DNA from: Thraustochytrium sp. TN22
Lineage: Eukaryota; Sar; Bigyra; Thraustochytrida; Thraustochytriidae
Direction of reading: 5' to 3'
Assembly: GCA_013306675.1 (NCBI GenBank)
Contig: JABLUY010000141.1
Coordinates: forward strand, 1 to 64,000
DNA: 64,000 bases
Position 1 is the first letter of the stretch, and each line of letters begins with the position of its first letter. A model generated the notes under the pieces. It did no database searches. It was not told where the DNA came from and saw only the letters and a list, made by a program, of their open reading frames with translations. The position numbers and the translations under genes are program-made. Of this stretch, positions 12,848-55,306 are shown in pieces.

Positions 12848-14332
12848 TCAGGCTTCGCTCTGGGCACGCTCGAAAGACGCGTGGACCTGGACGGCCTGCA
12901 GGGTCTGCTTGGCGGCCTGCAGCTCGGTCTCGGCCTCAGAGCGCAGCGAGCGCTCGAGCGAGAGCTCACGGCGAAGACGCGCGAGTTCTGCGTTGAGCGC
13001 AGCGTGTGTGGCGTCCTTCTCGGCCAGGGTCTCACGTCGCACAATGTCGCGAGCGCACTCGTCCTCGCGGGTACGCTGGAGCTCCAGGCGCAACGCTGCG
13101 AGCTGCCGCTCGCTTCGCAGAAGCTTGCTGGCGTCCTCGGCAGCGTTCGTCTCCAACGTGCTCACGCGATGCTGCAGAGTGTTGATGCGCTGCTTGGCTG
13201 CAAGCAGCTTGGCCGTGAGGCTCTGCTTCGCGGCCTCCTTGCGCTTTGCGATCTCCACCTCGGCCAGCTTCTGCTCCGGGCTGGCGACCCGGAGCGCTCT
13301 GAGACCACGACGGACGGGAACAACACGAATGGGACTTGGATGCGGCGACTGGCGAGGGCTTTCACAACCGGCACCTGGCTCGCCGATCTCCAGGTCCTCG
13401 AGTGGGGGCGACGTGGAATGGCAATGTGGCTGTCGGGCAGCCTTGCGGGATGCCAGCGGCCCCCACGCGACGCTTGAGGTGTGCACGAGCATGAGGCGGC
13501 CGTGCGTGGCGTCACGGATGAGACTGGCAGAGAGTCGGTGGAGCTCAAGGCTGTGCACGTCCGCCAGGTAGACGCGAAGCGCTTCAACGAAGTTGCGGAG
13601 CTCTGTCGCTGTACTTGGGGCAATCGACGGTGCTCTCTCGTTGCCAGTTGTGGAGGCAGAGTCCTCAGCCATGGAGTGCGTGCGCTCGCCGACCGAAATT
13701 GCCATTTCGGCGGCCTCGTCCGGCTTCGCAGCACGGCCCGTGCGCACCACAGTCATGGTGGAGCGGCGCAGGATGACGCCGCAGCGGACAGGCTCGTCCC
13801 CGTGGACGTCTACATCATACTGCAGACCGTCCTCGCTGAGCACAAAGGCCTGGGCGAAGAATGGTCCTTTGACAAAGTCTGCGTCGCCCGGCTCGTACGT
13901 ATCGGCGCGCACCTCGGCTTCCTGCCAGGCGCGCTTGCGAACCCATTGGCGAAAGCCCGGGAGGTCGAGACACACGTGATGGTCGCGCGACGCATCCACA
14001 CATACACGGTCAAGAAGCTCCTCGTGGCGCGCGCGGTCCTCCCAGTCGGCCAGCAGGCCCAGCAGGTTGACGTCCGCGATTGCCTTGTGCACGACGCTAG
14101 GCGTCGCGGCAGCGCCCCGAGGCCGGCGTCGCGCTGCGGAGGCCGCAGAGGCCGGCCTGCACGTCGCGCCAGCCCACGCCGAGAGCACGTAGTCCTCTAG
14201 CAGGCCCCTCTCGTCGAAGAGGGCGGTGGGCGCCACGTAGAATGGCGCGCCGCGCTTCAGCTTGCCCAGCAGCGCGCGCGTCGCGGTCCGGCTATCCGAG
14301 CTGGCGAACGTCGCCGTCAGTGCACCACTCAT
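12848..14332 (-). CDS. Coiled-coil protein of unknown function
   Basis: The protein has 494 residues. ATG 14332 (MSGALTATF) is the first ATG; the frame upstream begins with GTG. I do not recognise the family. The N-terminal 230 residues look globular, with aromatic-rich segments such as HVCLDLPGFRQWVRKRAWQ and FFAQAFVLSEDGLQYDVDV. Residues 230-345 are Ser/Pro-rich linker, and residues 348-485 form a long coiled coil with heptad Leu/Ala and alternating Arg/Glu. The layout suits a cytoskeletal or centrosomal scaffold, but that is a guess. It is divergent from the nitrile hydratase gene. Confidence 0.7.
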   Translation of the reverse strand: MSGALTATFASSDSRTATRALLGKLKRGAPFYVAPTALFDERGLLEDYVLSAWAGATCRPASAASAARRRPRGAAATPSVVHKAIADVNLLGLLADWEDRARHEELLDRVCVDASRDHHVCLDLPGFRQWVRKRAWQEAEVRADTYEPGDADFVKGPFFAQAFVLSEDGLQYDVDVHGDEPVRCGVILRRSTMTVVRTGRAAKPDEAAEMAISVGERTHSMAEDSASTTGNERAPSIAPSTATELRNFVEALRVYLADVHSLELHRLSASLIRDATHGRLMLVHTSSVAWGPLASRKAARQPHCHSTSPPLEDLEIGEPGAGCESPRQSPHPSPIRVVPVRRGLRALRVASPEQKLAEVEIAKRKEAAKQSLTAKLLAAKQRINTLQHRVSTLETNAAEDASKLLRSERQLAALRLELQRTREDECARDIVRRETLAEKDATHAALNAELARLRRELSLERSLRSEAETELQAAKQTLQAVQVHASFERAQSEA

Positions 14333-15107: not shown

Positions 15108-16715
15108 ATGGCATGCCAGCCATGCCATCGACGGCAAAGCCTGGTGGAGCAGCAGAACGGCAACGCGAGCGAGGGCGGCGTAGTCACAGCGTCAGCAGCA
15201 CCAGCAGCACCAGCAGCACCAGCAGCACCCAGTGCTCGTCGAGAGTGCGACTGGGCTCGGCTCCGCACGATGGAGCAGTCGCTGGACGCGCCGCCCGTGT
15301 CGATTGGGCAGCACGACGTGGGTGGGCGGGCGGAAGCGTACGGCCGGGTGGTGACGACGGCGGGCGACGATAATGCGCCTGGCGAGGACGCGGCGAGCGC
15401 GCTCTGGGAGCGACGCGTGCATGCGACGCTAGGTCTCCTGGCGCAGCGTGGGCTCATTACAACGGACGAGATGCGGCGCGGCGTGGAGCAGCTGCCCAAG
15501 GAGCTGTACGACCGGAGCTCGTACTACGGGCGCTGGGCGCGGTCCATGACGGCTGTGTTGCTGGAGCGCGGCACGCTGACCCGCGAGGATATCAAGGAGC
15601 ACATTCTGCCGGACGCGCCGGAGCGCGCCGTGAACAAGTTTGGGGTGGGCGACCTGGTGCGCGTGCGCAGCGAGGACTTCCGGTCGTGCTTCGTGCGCCC
15701 GCACCTGCGCACGCCGGGCTACATCTTTGGCGTCATCGGCCGCGTAGAGCGGTACGTGGGAGACTTCAAGGCGCCCGAGCTGCTGGCATTTAACCTGGAG
15801 GCACCAAAGCAGGACCTCTACCGCGTCCGTTTCGACCAGCGCGACCTGTGGACCAACTTTGTGGGCAACGACAACGACACTCTCGACGTGGAGGTTTACG
15901 AGCCTTGGCTGGAGCCGGCCACGGAGGATGACCTGGCCCGCCAGGTCGCCCAGAGGCCTGCCCCCAAGGCGCACGGCCACGCGGACTGCGAGCATGACCA
16001 CGACCATGGTCACAGTCACGCCCACGGGCATGGCCACAGCCACGGCCACGGCCACGGCCACGATCATGGCGATCATGTGCACGAGGAGCGCACGGTGGTC
16101 GAGCAGCGCGCGCTGGACCGCGAAAACCTCGCGGCCGCGGACGAGCAGTTCGGCCAGGGTCTCATTAAGGCCGTGCTCGCCAAGGGCCTCTTCACCGCGG
16201 AGGAGCTTCAGGCCACGGTGGAGGCGGCCGAGACCAAGGGTGTGGTCGGCAACGGAGCAAAGATCGTCCTACGCGCGTGGCAGGATGCGGCCTTCCGCGA
16301 GCGGCTCCTGGCGGACGCCAACGCCGCGGTGCAGGAGCTGGGCTTCAACGCCTCGAACCCGAACGCTCCTACGAAGCTGGTCGTGGTGCCGAGCGACGAG
16401 AAGACGCACAACATCATCGTGTGTACGCTCTGCAGCTGCTACCCGACTGGCCTGCTCGGGCCGTCGCCGTCCTGGTACAAGTCGCGGTCCTACCGCGCGC
16501 GCGTGGTCCGTGAGCCCCGCCGCGTGCTCGAGGAGTTCGGTACGGTGCTCCCGGAGGACATGCAGGTCCGCGTGCACGATTCAACGGCCGATTGCCGGTA
16601 TATGGTGCTCCCGGCGCCGCCGGCTGGCTACACGCCGCCGAGCACGCCGGAGGAGGAGGCTGAGCTCGCCTCGCGCATCACCCGCGAGCACCTGATTGGC
16701 ACCAAACGTCTCTGA
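15108..16715 (+). CDS. Nitrile hydratase, fused beta-alpha, Co-type, with His-rich linker
   Basis: The enzyme hydrates nitriles to amides. The 535-residue intronless frame reads beta subunit then alpha subunit. The beta start IGQHDVGG is at residues 66-73, so ATG 15270 (Met55) could be the true start; the extra N-terminus is an APAAPA repeat. Beta features are the SSYYGRWARS segment and the SH3-like part ending LYRVRFDQRDLW. A linker at about 289-328 is dominated by His-Gly/His-Asp pairs. The alpha part carries VCTLCSC, with the claw CTLCSC at 439-444 (cobalt type; iron type is CSLCSC), then SWYKS and the terminal RYMVLPAPP block. Beta-alpha fusions with a His-rich linker are known from choanoflagellates and a few other protists. 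All catalytic landmarks are present. Lateral origin is possible, but base composition matches the neighbours. Confidence 0.95.
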   Translation: MACQPCHRRQSLVEQQNGNASEGGVVTASAAPAAPAAPAAPSARRECDWARLRTMEQSLDAPPVSIGQHDVGGRAEAYGRVVTTAGDDNAPGEDAASALWERRVHATLGLLAQRGLITTDEMRRGVEQLPKELYDRSSYYGRWARSMTAVLLERGTLTREDIKEHILPDAPERAVNKFGVGDLVRVRSEDFRSCFVRPHLRTPGYIFGVIGRVERYVGDFKAPELLAFNLEAPKQDLYRVRFDQRDLWTNFVGNDNDTLDVEVYEPWLEPATEDDLARQVAQRPAPKAHGHADCEHDHDHGHSHAHGHGHSHGHGHGHDHGDHVHEERTVVEQRALDRENLAAADEQFGQGLIKAVLAKGLFTAEELQATVEAAETKGVVGNGAKIVLRAWQDAAFRERLLADANAAVQELGFNASNPNAPTKLVVVPSDEKTHNIIVCTLCSCYPTGLLGPSPSWYKSRSYRARVVREPRRVLEEFGTVLPEDMQVRVHDSTADCRYMVLPAPPAGYTPPSTPEEEAELASRITREHLIGTKRL

Positions 16716-21986: not shown

Positions 21987-22953
21987 CTACTTCTTGAGGA
22001 TGCCCTTCTCCTGGAGGAACTCGATGGTCTTGGCGCAGGACTCCTCGACGCTGTACTGGTGGGTGGGCAGAACCAGGTCGGGCTTGTCCGGGGCCTCGTA
22101 CGGGTCGTCAATGCCGGTAAAGTTCTTGATCTCGCCGGCGCGGGCCTTCTTGTAGAGGCCCTTGGGGTCGCGCGACTCGGCCACCTCGAGGGGCACGTCG
22201 GCGAAGACCTCAAAGAAGGGGACGCCCATGCGCTCGTGGATCTCGCGCGCCTTCTCGCGGCTGCGCTTGTACGGGCTGATGAAGGAGGTGATGGCGATGA
22301 CGCCGCTGTCCGAGAACAGGGCGGCCACCTCGCCGATGCGGCGCAGGTTCTCCTCGCGGTCCTCCGCGCTAAACCCGAGGCCGGCGTTCAGGCCGAAGCG
22401 GATGTTGTCCTGGGGAGTGAAGCAGCGAAATGTCAGTCAACTCCGTTCCTCCGTCATGTGGCGGAGGGAGAGCCGCGGCGGCGAGCGTCGTCGACTTACA
22501 CCACTGCGATGGGAAGGAGACCAAAAGGGGGAAAGGAGAAGAGAGGAGCACGAGCGCAGGAGTCAGTGAGCCATTCAGAGGTGGTCATTCGGGAAAGGCC
22601 GAGGCCAGCACGTACTCGAGGCGGTAGGCGTGCACGCCCATCTCGAGCAGCTTGTGCTCGAGGGCGGCGCCGACGGTGGACTTGCCACTGCCCGAAAGGC
22701 CGGTGACCCAGAGGGTGGCACCAATGTGGTTGGACTTGAGGAAGTTCTGGCGCTCCTCCTTGGTGAGCAGGGCATCGGACCAGATGACGTTCTCGTTGTG
22801 CTTGGACTTGATGTTGGTGGTGACGTCCTTGTGGCCGGTCTGCGTCTCCTTCTTGACGTCGCTGGACATGCTCATGGCGCCCACGCGGCGGCCGAGGAGA
22901 CCCTCGGTGCGCGCGACGGCGGAGGCGGTCCGGGTGGCGGTCAGCTTGAACAT
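21987..22953 (-). CDS. Adenylylsulfate (APS) kinase, three exons including a 4-nt microexon
   Basis: The enzyme phosphorylates APS to PAPS, the sulfate donor for sulfotransferases. Exons are 22616-22953, 22500-22503 and 21987-22409, joined by introns of 112 and 90 nt; the product has 254 residues. The P-loop GLSGSGKST is at 85-93. Exon 1 ends in the middle of an Asp codon after AYRL; the four bases TGGT complete Asp and add Gly, and exon 3 begins DNIRFGLNAGLGFS, restoring the family motif LDGDNIRFGLN exactly. Then come EDREENLRRIGEVA, TSFISPYKRSRE and GIDDPYE, all typical. The N-terminal 30 residues are Arg/Ser/Ala-rich and may be an organelle-targeting peptide. It is divergent from the 24113 gene. 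Confidence 0.94.
22500..22503 (-). other. 4-nt microexon of APS kinase
   Basis: On the minus strand the order is ATCGCAG, then TGGT, then GTAAGTCG. The acceptor and the strong GTAAGT donor flank only four bases. They supply the third base of Asp113 and all of Gly114. Leaving them out shifts the frame and loses the conserved Gly. Confidence 0.85.
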
Positions 22954-27048: not shown

Positions 27049-28077
27049 CTAAGCATCGACCGAACGGTCGCCGCCAAGAATTTCGGCCTTGGCCACGGGG
27101 AGAAGAGTCTCGCCATCGTACATGCTGCTCGCGACGGGAAGGGCTGTGAGGACGCCGGAGGCGCCGCCGGGGCCGCCGCCGTCGGCACCGTCGCTGGACT
27201 TGGCGCTAGCCCTGTTGGCGCGTGCGCGGTGCCAAAAGAAGAAGAAGGCCGCGGCGAGCGCCGAGACGCCGGCCGCCGTGACACCCACTGCCACAGGGAG
27301 CTCGATAGGCGAGGTCGACGAGTCGGTTGAATCGCTGGCCGGAGAGGTCTCCGCAGGCCCGCTTGTCGGCGCTGCGGTCGGCGTTGCGGTCTGCATTTCG
27401 GCGGAAGTTGGGGCTTGCGTGGGAGACAAAGTCGGAGAGGATGTTGGGGAGCAGGTCGCGTCGCCAACCAGCACGCTGACCGAGTCCAGCGATTCGGGAA
27501 GAGCGTCCTCGCAAATCCCGTTTCCCGTAAGGTCCAGCGTGTCCAGCGAGGCGGGAAATGTCAGGGTTGCGCCCAGCGAAGAGAACCTGTTCCTCTGCAG
27601 GCCGCTGCGAGATGGAATGCAGTACGCTTGTCAGTCAGTCTTCAAATTCGTCCAGGCGGCAGCAGCTCGAGATCACAAAACGTACAGGTACGTCAGACTC
27701 GTCAGCGTATCCAGCGACGTCGGCAGCGAACTCAATCGGTTGTCGCCGAGGTACCTGCACAGAAGCAAAGAGTCAGCCCCCCCTCGCGATAAGACACATG
27801 TGGAAGATCCGCGCGCGCGCGCGCTCGCCGAAAAGTGGCACCTACAGGGTGGCAAGGTGAGAGAGGCGCTTAGTTGCGGACGCCGAGGCCAAGGAGTTCA
27901 CAGAGGTGAGTCGGTTGGAGGACATGTCCCTGCAACGAATCTCGGGGCGTCAGAAGCCGTGTGTTGGGGGCGGAGTTGCAAAACGCAATACGTACAGAAA
28001 GGTGAGCTGGTCAAGGGCCGCGATGTTTGAGAAGGGAGTCGTGAGATCGTTCCCCGAAATCGAACTGAACGTCGCGA

Positions 28078-28109
<32 letters not shown>

Positions 28110-29205
28110 GCGTCAGCTTCCGGCGGAACTGGCGCGGGCAGAGGATTCGGACCTACAGATGCTTGAGGGTATCGAGGGCCGAGAACCGAGTTGGGAGGCT
28201 GGAGATACTGTTACCATCCAGGTAGCTGATATCGAGAATCAATGCATCTTGTGTCAGATCGAGCGAACATCCTGGCGATCATTCATGCACCATGCACACC
28301 ACTTACAGCGCCGTGAGAGTCTGCAGCCCGTTCAAGATGGCCGTCGAATCCGAGTTCCCCCAGAGCTGCGAGACATCATTATCCGCGAGCCGTCTGCGGT
28401 CAGGGCACACGCATCGAGTCAGTCGCTGAGAAGAGAAAAACTTCGGTGTGCCTGGCACGGCGCGCCACTCCATTGATGAAAAAGGACTCACAGCTCAACC
28501 ATCGCGCTGAGGGCCACAACTGGCAGCAGCGACGACACATCATTTCCGTTCAGATTGCTGCGGGGCGCGAGAGAAAGCGGGTGAACGCGTGTGCCGGTGC
28601 GTGAGTGAGCTAGCTCGCGAGTCACACAAGGGCGAGCATGTGGTGAGAACCGCCAGCGGTGCAACCTACAGGGAGGTGATCCAGGTAAGGGCTGAGAGCG
28701 CATTGAGACCACTGTCGTCCAGCTCATTGTTCTCAAGGCTCCTGTCTCGCAAAATTTGGTTCGGTTAGCGAGCCGCAGGCAGGCAGGTGGGCAGAAAGAC
28801 TGGCGCGAAGAAATCTCGGTCGCAACCTACAGCGTCTCGAGAGCGGTCAACGACGTAAGCTGCGGCAAAGTAGACATGGTGCCATTGACGAGAGCGCTGT
28901 CATGGGGCCACGTAGGCTCTGTTAGTCTGTGCGCGCCTCGCTATTCGTGCTCGTTCAACGTACAGGCTCGTCAGGTCGGTCCTCAAGGAAGTTGGCAGCG
29001 AGTCATCGCACCCTGTGCAGGTACACGCGTAGGTGGTCTCACTCGCAACCATCAACTCCCCAATGACGCTGGCGGTCTCAAGGCAGGCCGACTCGCAGGC
29101 GCAGGCGGACTGCAGCCCGCGCAGTTCCTTGCCGCACGCCTCGCCCGCCAGCAGCCCCACGGCGAGAGCCGACACGAGCGCGGCGGCGCCCCGCACCATG
29201 GTCAT
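27049..29205 (-). CDS. LRR type I membrane protein, ten exons, one repeat per exon
   Basis: Exons are 28964-29205, 28831-28896, 28670-28741, 28492-28557, 28307-28393, 28157-28225, 27996-28064, 27846-27929, 27686-27754 and 27049-27604. They sum to 1380 nt, 459 residues. All nine introns are phase 2 and split the same Leu codon (CT/N). Exons 2-9 each encode one 22-29-residue leucine-rich repeat (patterns such as LYLDGNSISSLPTRFSALDT and LYLGDNRLSSLPTSLDTLTS). ATG 29205 or 29199 starts a signal peptide, followed by a Cys-rich cap. After the last repeat come a Thr/Ser/Pro stalk, a membrane helix (VAVGVTAAGVSALAAAFFFF) and a short Arg-rich cytosolic tail. No kinase domain. It is probably a cell-surface recognition or adhesion protein. 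Confidence 0.88.
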
Positions 29206-49360: not shown

Positions 49361-51514
49361 ATGGCCGCGGCCGCCCGCGCGCGCGGCGGCGCGGCGGGCC
49401 GGGCGGCGGCGCGGCGGCATCGGCGCGGCGGCCACGAGGGCGGGGCGCGCTGGCGGCGGCGGGCGGCGCGCGCGCGGGGAGGCGGCGCGGCGGCGCCGCG
49501 CGCGGCGCGGGAGCCCGCGCGCGGCGCGGGCGCGCGCGCGCGCGCGCGCGGCGGCGGGGCGGGCGCGGCGGGAGCGCCCGCCGCGGCCGCCGCCGCGCGG
49601 CGCGACGCGCGGCGCGAGCCCGCGGGAGCGGCCGCGGCGGAGCGGGAGGACGTGCAGGGCGCCGCCGTGGACGGCGACGAGCACGACCTACGCGGCGGCA
49701 GCGAGCGCGGCGGCGGCGGCGGCGGGCGCGCGGGCGCGCGGCCGGCGCGCGGCGCGGAGACGCGCGGCGCGGCCGCGCGCGCGCCTGGCGGCGAGGAGCG
49801 GCGGCCGGCCGGAGAGGACCGGGCCCCGGCCGAGGCCCAGGCCCCGGCGCAGCCGGCCGGCGGGCCAGGGCGCGGGACCGTCGCGCAGCCCGACGAGGAG
49901 CAGCAGCAGCAGCAGCAGCAGGGGATGCACGAGCAGCGCGGCGCGCGCGGGGAGCGCGGCGGGGAAGGCGGCCAGGGGCAGGGGGCCGAGGAGGAGGAGG
50001 AGGAGGAGGAGGAGCTGGAGGAGGAGGAGCAGCTGGAGCTGGAGGAGGAGCTGGACGGGGAGGTGGAGGCGCGGGCCGCGGAGGCGCGGGCCGCGGAGGC
50101 GCGCGGGTGGGCGAGGGGTGGCATGATGGCGGACGCCATGCAGGCCTCGGCGGCGCGCAAACGACGCGCGAGCGAGGAGGAAGGAGAGCGACGGCCGGCC
50201 AAGCAGGCGCGCACGACGCAGCAGGCGGATGAGGAGATGGAGGAGAATGAAGCCGAGGCAGAGGCCGGCGAGGGCGCGGCGGCCGATGTGGTGGTGCGGC
50301 CCAGCGCGATGGCCATGTGGACGCGGCCCAGCGAGGCCGCGGTCGAGCTGGCGGCCGCCGCTGCCGCGCTGGTGCCCGGCATGCGCGTGGCGGGCGCCGC
50401 CAACGCCATGGACCTCCTCGCAGAGGTGAGTCAGAGCCCCGTGCTGGCCAGGGAGCTCGAGTCGCTCTCGCCCAGCACGCTCGGGCACATGGACGGTATC
50501 GAGGATGCGCAGGAGTCCGAGGCACTCCTGATGCTGTCCACCATGGCCCTGGGCCGCAGCAGCGATGTCATCTTCGCGGACGCCATCCCGGACTCGGGCC
50601 GCGGCAGCAGCCCCGCCACCTCGAGCACCGCCAGCAGCGCCGCCGCCGCGACGGCGGCGGCTGCCACCAAGGCCGCCAAGGCCACCAAGACCGTCAAGGC
50701 CGCCAAGGCCACCAAGGCGGCGACCGCCGCGGCCGCCCCGTCGACGGCCGCGGGCGATGATGCCTCGCAAGCGGCCACCGCCAAGGCCAAGGCCGCCAAG
50801 GCCAAGGCGGCGCGGCGCAACGCGGCGCTGGCGGCCACGCAGGGCCTGAGCGCCGAGGCGAAGCGGCGACGCAACGCGCTCTTCCGCTTCTCGAAGCGCG
50901 AGCTGGCCACGGCGCTCTTCTCGCACGTGGCGCTCAACCGCGAGCGGTGCCGCGAGGAGGGCCGCTTCAGCAAGTTCATCTGCGAGCTCTTTGCGCGCGA
51001 GAACTGGATCATGCCCGAGATCGGCGACGACGTGCAGATCGACTTCTCGCTGCTTACCAAGGACACCCTGTCGCATTTTTGCGATGCCTTCAACGTGTCC
51101 CCATCGCGGAACCCGGCGCCCGGGGCCGCAGCCAAGGCGCCTGCGGCGGCCGAGGACGCCAGCTCGCAGGCCCCGCGCGCTGCGGCCAAGCCCGCGCTCA
51201 AGCCGGAGCGCCCGTCCCCTGCCGCCAGCGCCACCGCCACCGCCAGCGTCACGGCGAGCGAGGCGATCTCCGAGGACGGCGCCACGGACGGCGCCACGCG
51301 CTCCGTCGCGAACGCAACCAGCCGCAAGCGCTCGCGGGGCGCCGCGCGTGTATGTGTCTGCATGGACCGCGCAGCCTTTCCCACGCTCGTGCCGTGTGCC
51401 GCGGGCGAGAAGGGCCGCTGCCACGGCTTCGTGCATCCGGAATGCGTCGGCCTTAGCCCGGCCAGGACCAAGGAAATCCAGGATGCCGTTGCGGCTGCTG
51501 TCGCGGCCGCCACC

Positions 51515-51546
<32 letters not shown>

Positions 51547-52843
51547 TGCTGTGCCTGCTGCGGACGGCGCCAGCGATGGCGAGGCGGCGAGTCCGGCAGC
51601 GGCAGAAGCCGCTGCTGCTGCTGCTGTGGCTGCTGCTGTGGCTGCCGCCACTGCCGCCGCCTGCAACTATATGTGCCCGCTCGACAAGCACGAGGCCGAG
51701 GGCCGCCACGTAGACCTGATTCGCGCGCCGCCGGACGGCGAGCCGGACACCACGGGCCAGCCCTGCTCCTTTTGCAGGCTGCCCGAAGGGGATTGTCGCT
51801 TGGGCGACCTCATCGGACCCTTTGTACGCGAGTCCGGCCTTGGAAAGGAACTCTGGGCTCACCGCGTCTGCGCGCTGACCTCACGCAACGCCGGCTGCGC
51901 CCCGGATGGCCTATGGTACAATATCGTTGTCGACCTGGACAAGGCCGCACGCCGCAAGTGTTTTGTCTGCAAGGAGCGTGGCGCTAGCACCGAGGCTGTT
52001 GTGGGTCGCAAGCACTTCTTCCATGTACCCTGCCTGCTCGGCCTCTCGTCTTCGCTCGGCCCCAAGGCGCGCCGCGTGAGCAACGCACTCGCCTCGCTCC
52101 CGGCCCCTTCCGACGAAAAGGCCTATGCGCGCGTCATCCGGCGCCAGATGAAGCTCGCGGCCCGCCTCAAGGAGCTCATTATTGACGCTTCCGATGCTCT
52201 CAAGGACCCCCCCGCCGCAAAGCAGGCCGTCGCTGCTGCTGCTGCTGCTTCTGCTTCTGCTTCTGCTGCTGCTGCTGCTGCTACGACGACGGCAACGATG
52301 ACGGCTGCAACGGCGCCGACGGCGCCTGTGACTGCGTCAACGGCAACGTTGGCACCGGCGATGACGGATCTCGCTGCTGCTGCTGCAGCAGTTGCTGCAG
52401 ATGCTGCTGATGCTGCTGCTGCTGGTGGTGATGATGATGGTGATGCCGCTGGCATTGCTGCCGCCGCCCCGAGCGAGTCTGTGGCGGTGAAAAAGCAGGG
52501 CGTACCCGCCAAGGCCAAGCAGCCGGCATCCAAGTCAGCGAACAAGTCCGCGAACAAGTCCGCGACCAAGTCCGCGACCAAGTCCGCATCCAAGTCCACA
52601 ACCAAGCCTGGGTCCAAGGCGGCTGCCGCCTCCGGAGCCGACAGGACCACGCCAAGTCAGGGCAAAAAGGCGCAGGTCGACAAAAAGAGCGCTCCCTCCG
52701 ACAAGAAGCTCGCCAAGCCGGTCAAGAGCGCCAGTGTCACGCCAACCAACGGCAAGCCGACCAATGGCAAGGCCGACCTCTTGGCCGCAGTCAGGAATAC
52801 TCCGCTTGCGACACTCGCGGCCGCGCTCTTGGACCAGGCCTGA
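49361..52843 (+). CDS. PHD-finger chromatin protein with histone-H1-like tail
   Basis: The frame from ATG 49361 gives 1160 residues, but the first 190 are translated GC triplets; ATG 49925 (MHEQRG) or 50123 (MMADAMQAS) may be the real start. Visible parts: a Glu-rich run and a nuclear-type KRRRNALFRFSKRE segment near 500, then a compact helical region (KFICELFARENWIMPEIGDD). A zinc-finger-like stretch near 664 (VCVCMDRAAFPTLVPC, HGFVHPEC) precedes an extended PHD module at about 795-905 (PCSFCRLPEGDCRLG, LWAHRVCALTS, CFVCKERGAS, HFFHVPC). The tail is Ala/Lys/Ser with repeated KSANKSATKSASK units, like linker histone tails. ePHD modules read histone tails. The nuclear chromatin role is inference from these parts. 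Confidence 0.72.
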
Positions 52844-52961
52844 TATTTGACTGACAAGCCATCGCTGCTCTGATCATTACCCACTTACAAGCAAGCAAGT
52901 GGGTAGGGTACCAGCGTAGCACCACGACCATCGAGACACGTACCACCACCCACAAGAGTTG

Positions 52962-55306
52962 ATATCCCAATCACACCTCTATGCTTACTCGTATCCGCCT
53001 ACCACGCGGGGGTCCCTCGGTGACGCCCGGCACAGGGGGCACTAAAGCGTATTAAGAGGGTACTTTACTCCCGATTTGCTCCAAAAAAGTGGCCTAGAGT
53101 CTGGCGAAGTTAGTTCCGCATTCGATCAAAAACGCAGCGATGGGGCCGAGCTTGAAGAGGCCCACTCGAAGCGACCCAAGGCTCCTGCCCCCTATTCATT
53201 TTGGCCGAAGGCGTGGTGGTTAGGATGAGATGAGCTCGGCAGTTCGCCCAGAGCGGCTTTGGGGGGAGCTCGCGCGCGACTTCGTCGCGGAGCGCGCTGG
53301 AGCCGCAGGCGCTGCGGCGCGCGGCTGCAGGCGGCCCTGGCGGGTGCCTTGTGCCTGCTCTCAGCTCGCACGCCCCTGCCGCAGCGCTTGGACGTGGAGT
53401 CGGGCCCGCACTGCGACATCATGGCATCGGCGAGGCCTAACCACCGCGTGGAGGACGACAGCGACAGCGACAGCGACAGCGAGTTCGTGCCCCTGGACAA
53501 GCGGGACACAGGGGACGAAGACGAAGAAGGAGAGGAGCTTGGCGACGAGGATGCTCGTGCTGAGGCCGCTGCGCAGCAAGACTTCGAAGACATACTTGCG
53601 TTGGTCGACGAACCGACGCGTGGTGCGAGTGCATGTTCGAGGTCGGCCTCATTCAGCACAAGACCGTTCCGGGGCTCGCAGTCTCGCCGGATGGAGTCGC
53701 TCGCGTCCGGCTTCCAGGCGCGGAGTGCGACGCATCGTCAGTACTATGCAGCGTCGAGATCAAGACGCGCGTCGCGCCTGGAGGCGCGGTAGACGCACGT
53801 ATCGTGAGCACCCAGATGAACACGTGGGGGACGAGACTTGGTGGAAGGCCATACCTGCCGAGCACCGCGCGCAAGTCTTGCACCAAGCTGTGGTCCTCCA
53901 AATCGATCACGTGCTCTACGTTGCTGCCAGCACGAGTTCGTGTTTGTACGCCTGCCTCGTTGAAGTGCCTCCGGACGCCCGGCTCGCCATGGAGCGCGCT
54001 CTGAAACCGTGGGCGGACAAGCTCACGACATGGGCGCACCAGAGCATCGACAGCGGGTGCGCCGCCCAAGCCACCTGCCATCTTCGGCGAGGAGGAGGGG
54101 GCGGTGCTGAGCTCGCACTTCCGGCTGTGGCGCGCCATGCGCAAGCTTGTCGCTCTGAAGGGGCCCATGCGGCCCGTGCATGTCATCAAGTGCTTACCGC
54201 AGGAGCTATACAACGTCGCAAAGGGCGGCGTCGACGGAAGCACACAGTACGTGGAGCAGATCACCAACACGCAGTGCATGAATCTGAGCTGCGACCAGAA
54301 CATCGCGTTGCGCACGTACAAGCAGCTCGTTGTCAACGCCATCGTGGTCTACCGCTACTTACAGGCTGCGAGGAAGAGCAACCTCGAAGACAGCGACGGG
54401 CTAAAGGCCCTCCGCGACAAGGTGAACCGCTCTGAAGCGCTCAGCACTGTCTCGTTCCGCCTCACTGTCGACATGGTCCGTCACGTCTACAGGAGCAGGC
54501 AGCTCGATACGGCGCAGGTGGAGTTCAACATGCAGCCAAGCATGCCCAAGCCCACTGGGCTCACCAGGGAAGCGGCGAGGGACCTCGTGACCGCCGGTAA
54601 GCGCAAGCGAACCCCCGAGTTGCAGAAGTTCTTCAACCACGGCCAAGCCCGCGACATCCGCCTCGATGCCGCACTGCAACATGACTCAGAGGCAGCGGGA
54701 AAGGCATCCTTCAACGCCAACAACAAGAGGATTCCCGCCAAGCGGCTCTGCGTCATCTGCGGCAAGCAAACGCACCGTCGTTGCACCATCTGCGGTGTGC
54801 CTCTGCACGTGTTCATGAGAAAGAATGAACGCACAACCTGCTTTTCCAAGTGGCACACGCGCGTGCGCGTCGAGCCTCACGAAGGCTTCAAGAAGCGCAA
54901 GACAAACGTCAACGGAACACCTTCGCCCATTTGCCTCGATCATGTCGATTCGAGCAGCGCCAGTGCCTCGTCCGGTACCCCTACAGCGCAGAGCAGGAAC
55001 GACCACGTAGCCCAAGCCAGCTACACCGACACCCCATCAAGCCATAGTTCAAGATCCTCTCGCAGCAGCCTCAGCACGAGTCCATCGTGCCCTTGATGCA
55101 GCCCAAGTTGGCCTCAGCATCCGCACAGGCCAGTCGGAAGTGACCAACACTTTACGCTTCCATACAAACCCAGTAGTTGAAAGTTCCAAAAATGATTAGA
55201 ATCATGATAGCAACAGGTCAGTCGAGCGCAAGCAGGAGAGCCGATTTACTAGGGATAATATGGCTATCCTGATTAAACTCCGTCTAGGGCGATGGGATTG
55301 GGATAT
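52962..55306 (+). mobile_element. PiggyBac-like DNA transposon with YqaJ-like nuclease segment, broken
   Basis: Candidate ends are CCCAATC (52966-52972) and GATTGGG (55296-55302), 10 of 12 terminal bases matching, each flanked by ATAT; total 2.34 kb, close to the usual piggyBac size. Parts in order: an acidic N-terminal frame from about 53421, a YqaJ-like PD-(D/E)xK nuclease segment (VGLIQHKTVPGLAVSPDG, CSVEIKTRV, then AQVLHQAVVLQIDHVLYV), and a piggyBac-like tail from about 54085 with YNVAKGGVDGSTQYVE and the Cys/His end (CVICGKQTHRRCTICGVPL, TCFSKWHT). The parts lie in different frames, so the copy looks broken by about two to three frame changes, unless unseen introns are present. The usual DDE catalytic region was not found. 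ATAT rather than TTAA at the ends is unusual, so the end assignment is tentative. Confidence 0.6.

Follow-up and report, generated by a model that had tools for sequence, protein, structure and literature searches.

The window, by which we mean the whole 64-kb stretch of DNA that was analysed (G+C content 66.4%), carries on its minus strand an APS kinase gene that appears to consist of two long exons and, between them, an exon of only four nucleotides. Exon 1 (22616..22953, 338 nt) starts with an ATG at 22953-22951 and ends with CTCGA, the GA of which opens the Asp113 codon. It is followed by intron 1 (22504..22615, 112 nt; GTACGT...TTCCCATCGCAG), which ends with TCGCAG. The microexon TGGT (22500..22503, 4 nt) then provides the T that completes Asp113 (GA-T) and the GGT codon of Gly114, and is separated by intron 2 (22410..22499, 90 nt; GTAAGT...TTCACTCCCCAG, ending with CCCCAG) from exon 3 (21987..22409, 423 nt with the stop codon), which begins with GAC AAC for Asp115 and Asn116. 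Both long exons match the Pfam APS_kinase family, and all of these features lie on the minus strand. Joining exon 1, TGGT and exon 3 results in a 254-aa product that includes RLDGDNIRFGL. An earlier note on this DNA had left the strand unstated but had given the coordinates and the lengths of the two introns, all of which proved exact on re-checking. Its proposal that TGGT, set between a GCAG acceptor and a GTAAGT donor, finishes Asp113, adds Gly114 and restores LDGDN is borne out by the sequence and by translation of the joined exons. In the genomic sequence TGGT is thus flanked directly by the acceptor of one intron and the donor of another (GCAG-TGGT-GTAAGT). A zero-nucleotide recursive splice site was also considered at this position and was ruled out, since four coding bases stand between the AG and the GT.

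The predicted product is a stand-alone APS kinase. It scores 229.5 bits against PF01583 (cut-off 21.1) and 251.4 bits against TIGR00455 (cut-off 138.7), and 24 distinct PDB sequences match it at E<=0.001, the best solved relatives being human PAPSS1 (e.g. 2ofx) and also 1d6j. Judged by eye, its N-terminus perhaps contains an organelle-targeting extension. A search of the 37.9-Mb genome for APS kinases yielded only the present gene, whose two long exons account for both matches among the five candidates, all of which were scored. ATP sulfurylase likewise gave one match, located on another contig in an open frame of 457 aa. A single APS kinase gene together with one ATP sulfurylase match makes a working PAPS route plausible in this organism.

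Two further loci were recorded during the survey. On the plus strand of the window, 15270-16715 encodes a predicted 481-aa protein that may resemble a beta-alpha nitrile hydratase fused through a His-rich linker, including the VCTLCSCY motif. Contig C124 contains a 3,044-aa open frame for a PfaA-type polyunsaturated fatty acid synthase and, nearby on the other strand, an open frame of 2,083 aa; together with its in-frame neighbours, the PfaA-type frame scores 2,539.7 bits against TIGR02813, above a cut-off that all 14 control genomes fail to reach. Taken with the introns and the genome size, this synthase points to a thraustochytrid or another labyrinthulomycete as the probable source of the DNA.

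The four bases are needed for both the reading frame and the protein. As the earlier note had predicted, the frame shifts when TGGT is skipped, and the resulting product terminates after seven more residues, ending with RLETTSASA. Retention of intron 2 introduces an in-frame stop, and retention of intron 1 introduces a stop as well as a frameshift. Single excisions were scanned with every boundary between a point 60 nt into exon 1 and one 60 nt into exon 3, and none of the frame-keeping, stop-free excisions of at least 20 nt generated DGDN, irrespective of the bases at its ends. The 4-nt exon is the only reading found that would yield the DGDN loop. An alignment of the best 80 of 217 relatives found, all 80 titled as bacteria, shows D113, D115 and N116 in 80/80, and the position of G114 is occupied by Gly in 79 and by Ala in one. 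A search of viral contigs gave three stretches fitting a pattern, none of which was confirmed as a relative.

The earlier note had called the interrupted sequence the nucleotide-binding motif of APS kinase, a name that calls for qualification. The sequence GLSGSGKST, the classical nucleotide-binding P-loop, lies whole within exon 1. Both the P-loop and the DGDN loop are present in the product, the latter only when the microexon is included. The DGDN loop is described as contacting magnesium and the ATP gamma-phosphate (PMC9024126), and a figure legend labels it in a crystal structure that contains the two ligands (PMC4373884).

The signals within the two introns were then compared with those of other predicted introns. 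In intron 1 the acceptor AG is the sole AG, and pyrimidines make up 90% of the 40 nt before CAG; the corresponding value for intron 2 is 52.5%. The base at position -1 of the donor is A for intron 1 and T for intron 2, the common G being found in neither, and GTACGT donors also occur in an LRR gene of the window. Each intron contains a candidate branch site CTGAC (22562..22566 in intron 1 and 22432..22436 in intron 2, minus strand), whose A is 60 nt and 24 nt, respectively, from the intron end, with an AG-free run to the acceptor in both cases. Outside the APS kinase gene, 13 well-supported introns have GTRNGT donors; CTGAC lies 12-65 nt before the acceptor in seven of them and is followed by an AG-free run in four, a count weakened by the fact that the motif was chosen after inspection of the introns of APS kinase and the neighbouring LRR gene. 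Among 11 introns with other donors, one has the motif in range and none has it AG-free, and at 13,063 YAG sites in 264 kb of this genome, a control set in which the predicted introns were left, the corresponding numbers are 591 and 101. On these data CTGAC looks like a recurrent branch-site motif, positioned 15-64 nt before the acceptor, in part of the GTRNGT-donor introns. Unusual folding was not observed for either intron (z = 0.06 and -1.17).

When the complete arrangement was used as a double signature (donor, CTGAC, AG-free run, acceptor, an exon of 1-15 nt, and then the same series again, with introns of 60-150 nt), it was found once in 528,000 strand-bases, at the TGGT site, and was absent from the reversed sequence. 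Single complete intron signatures numbered 22 in the real sequence versus 10 in the reversed control, and the single-intron signature is therefore only moderately specific.

The LRR gene mentioned above (27049-29205, minus strand) encodes a protein predicted by eye to consist of leucine-rich repeats, and its model has seven introns in an intron-poor window. Three of its internal exons are 69 nt long (23 codons), and phase 2 is shared by all five of its well-supported introns, so the repeats seem to follow the exon boundaries.

How readily such an exon might arise by chance was assessed by shuffling the interior of the region 20,000 times, with dinucleotides preserved and the outer donor and acceptor fixed. 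AG-YGGN-GT giving Asp-Gly appeared in 55 of the 20,000 shuffles, in none of them with splice scores as good as those observed. An in-frame exon of 1-28 nt of any kind appeared in 10,496/20,000, with a score as good in seven. A tiny in-frame exon is thus easily found by eye, and the weight of the case rests on site quality and motif together. In 264 kb, both strands included and 10,734 positions being N, AG-YGGN-GT occurs 44 times; one of the 44 attains the observed score and one has a GTAAGT donor, and the TGGT site, which is itself counted, has both.

A gene finder based on a fixed consensus, codon statistics and generic splice matrices, and run without protein data, selected exon 1, TGGT and exon 3 exactly. 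Over 264 kb it produced 88 gene models with 60 introns, and 65 of the models are intronless, which fits the description of the genome as intron-poor in the earlier note. On the same matrices, which are generic, set by hand with the finding known and not trained on this genome, introns 1 and 2 score 9.7 and 11.6, and the introns at nine other proposed exons of <=36 nt score 5.6-9.6. These nine exons are most likely noise. Because the finder proposes such other, probably spurious, tiny exons, its choice of TGGT is weak evidence when taken alone. A gene model at 49361-55199 (plus strand) has exons of 5, 7 and 15 nt with weak splice sites, and probably represents a wrong model rather than a set of microexons.

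Several other explanations of the locus were weighed against a constitutive microexon. Among the in-frame single excisions scanned, 36 have canonical ends, the best being a 247-nt excision (donor 3.9, acceptor 1.9), which removes part of the loop, and a 202-nt excision, which gives LEYDN. The latter corresponds to a single intron with a GTGCTG donor at 22611 and the acceptor whose last base is 22410, with TGGT intronic. It is in frame, preserves the protein length and uses a strong acceptor, and its product would still be scored as an APS kinase (PF01583, 221.8 bits; TIGR00455, 243.5 bits). Since intron 2 and its acceptor are common to both structures, only the second half of intron 1 and the GTAAGT donor discriminate between them. 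The GTGCTG donor, however, scores -0.5, compared with 3.9 for the GTACGT donor four bases upstream, and the signals around TGGT would be left unexplained. LEYDN would moreover replace the Asp and the Gly found in 80/80 and 79/80 of the relatives (best 80 of 217). The cost is visible in the profile scores, which are 7.7 bits (PF01583) and 7.9 bits (TIGR00455) lower, and the LDGDN product outscores the LEYDN protein in 9/9 models listed for both (two Pfam, seven NCBIfam). We consider the 202-nt intron very improbable.

Alternative use of the microexon would overlap with constitutive use and differ from it in regulation: skipping or retention would give unproductive, truncated mRNA and thereby tune the PAPS supply. 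The frameshifted or stopped partial products are compatible with such a role, and PMC8831610 describes plant isoforms in which intron retention leaves out a 1-nt exon. Against this, the splice signals are good on both sides and our analysis of the locus revealed no sign of regulation; we consider alternative use unlikely. Decay of a gene copy, in which the broken motif would be real, finds its sole support in the motif being split in the DNA; both long exons show good conservation and coding character, no other APS kinase match was found in the genome, and we give this explanation hardly any credence. The presence of two adjoining introns in an intron-poor gene set could also point to insertion of members of a mobile intron family on either side of TGGT. 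A search of the 37.9-Mb genome with the 206-nt stretch, however, gave no match except itself (E<=0.01, very common words skipped), and such an origin is extremely unlikely. The introns were likewise rejected as mobile introner-type introns, for which many near-identical copies would be expected, on the basis of this one match to itself.

We therefore favor, with a probability of roughly 93%, the reading that two short introns bracket a constitutive 4-nt exon in the APS kinase pre-mRNA, and the interpretation of the earlier note is supported in substance. According to the mechanism we propose, each intron would be recognized across its own length (intron definition) by its donor, the CTGAC branch site, the AG-free tract and the acceptor. 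The introns being short, pairing of splice sites across them is expected, and the size of the exon would hinder only simultaneous occupancy. Because four nucleotides leave hardly any room for two spliceosomes at the same time, the introns would most likely be removed one after the other. Intron 2 may be excised first, an order favored by its GTAAGT donor, and TGGT would then be fused to exon 3 while intron 1 is still in place. The DGDN loop would then be encoded by the doubly spliced mRNA only, and the partial products tested run into early stops. That the mRNA contains TGGT, that it does so constitutively and that the introns leave in this order are points that we infer. The earlier note had suggested that so small an exon challenges exon-definition models. 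The challenge is weak, because the introns of 112 and 90 nt are short enough for cross-intron recognition to be expected and because a smaller exon has already been documented. One could speculate further that the order of intron removal is obligate and that the 4-nt exon acts as a checkpoint of two dependent splicing steps, through which the sulfur or growth state could control APS kinase, with similar unannotated exons perhaps present in other genes; we hold this extended scenario to be quite improbable.

The APS kinase gene contributes a case of a very small and apparently essential exon from a protist with few and short introns, and offers one compact gene on which the idea of stepwise splicing can be tested. 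Its interest comes from where the exon lies, splitting a catalytic loop in a gene found once, and from the sparse-intron setting. The case further suggests that a broken or altered APS kinase could result from automatic annotation here. Compared with known APS kinases (PF01583; PAPSS1), the predicted enzyme is alike in family, P-loop and DGDN loop and differs in gene structure.

On present evidence the predicted 4-nt exon is a clear case of a microexon with precedents elsewhere, and a literature search with partial coverage found no report on microexons in stramenopiles. It is not unprecedented in size, since plant exons of 1-15 nt, more than 2,000 of which have been reported (PMC8831610), are in print and include a 4-nt exon in rice. 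The plant microexons are backed by RNA-seq and RT-PCR, whereas the protist exon is based on sequence evidence only. A still smaller example is the single-nucleotide constitutive exon of Arabidopsis APC11 (PMC4674806), which, as proposed for TGGT, is internal, tiny and constitutive, with an intron on either side. The APC11 exon is 1 nt long, belongs to a plant and was assayed by transcription and translation; the predicted APS kinase exon is 4 nt long. The APC11 authors regard intron definition as the more plausible mode and propose successive removal of the flanking introns (PMC4674806). In potato invertase, with a 9-nt exon that is also very small although longer than 4 nt, removal of the second intron was reported to precede that of the first (cited in PMC4674806), an order that for APS kinase we only infer. 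The closest counterpart in size is the 4-nt exon of rice LOC_Os02g54020, which was validated by RT-PCR (PMC8831610); this exon was missed by annotation, and its omission leads to the loss of protein motifs.
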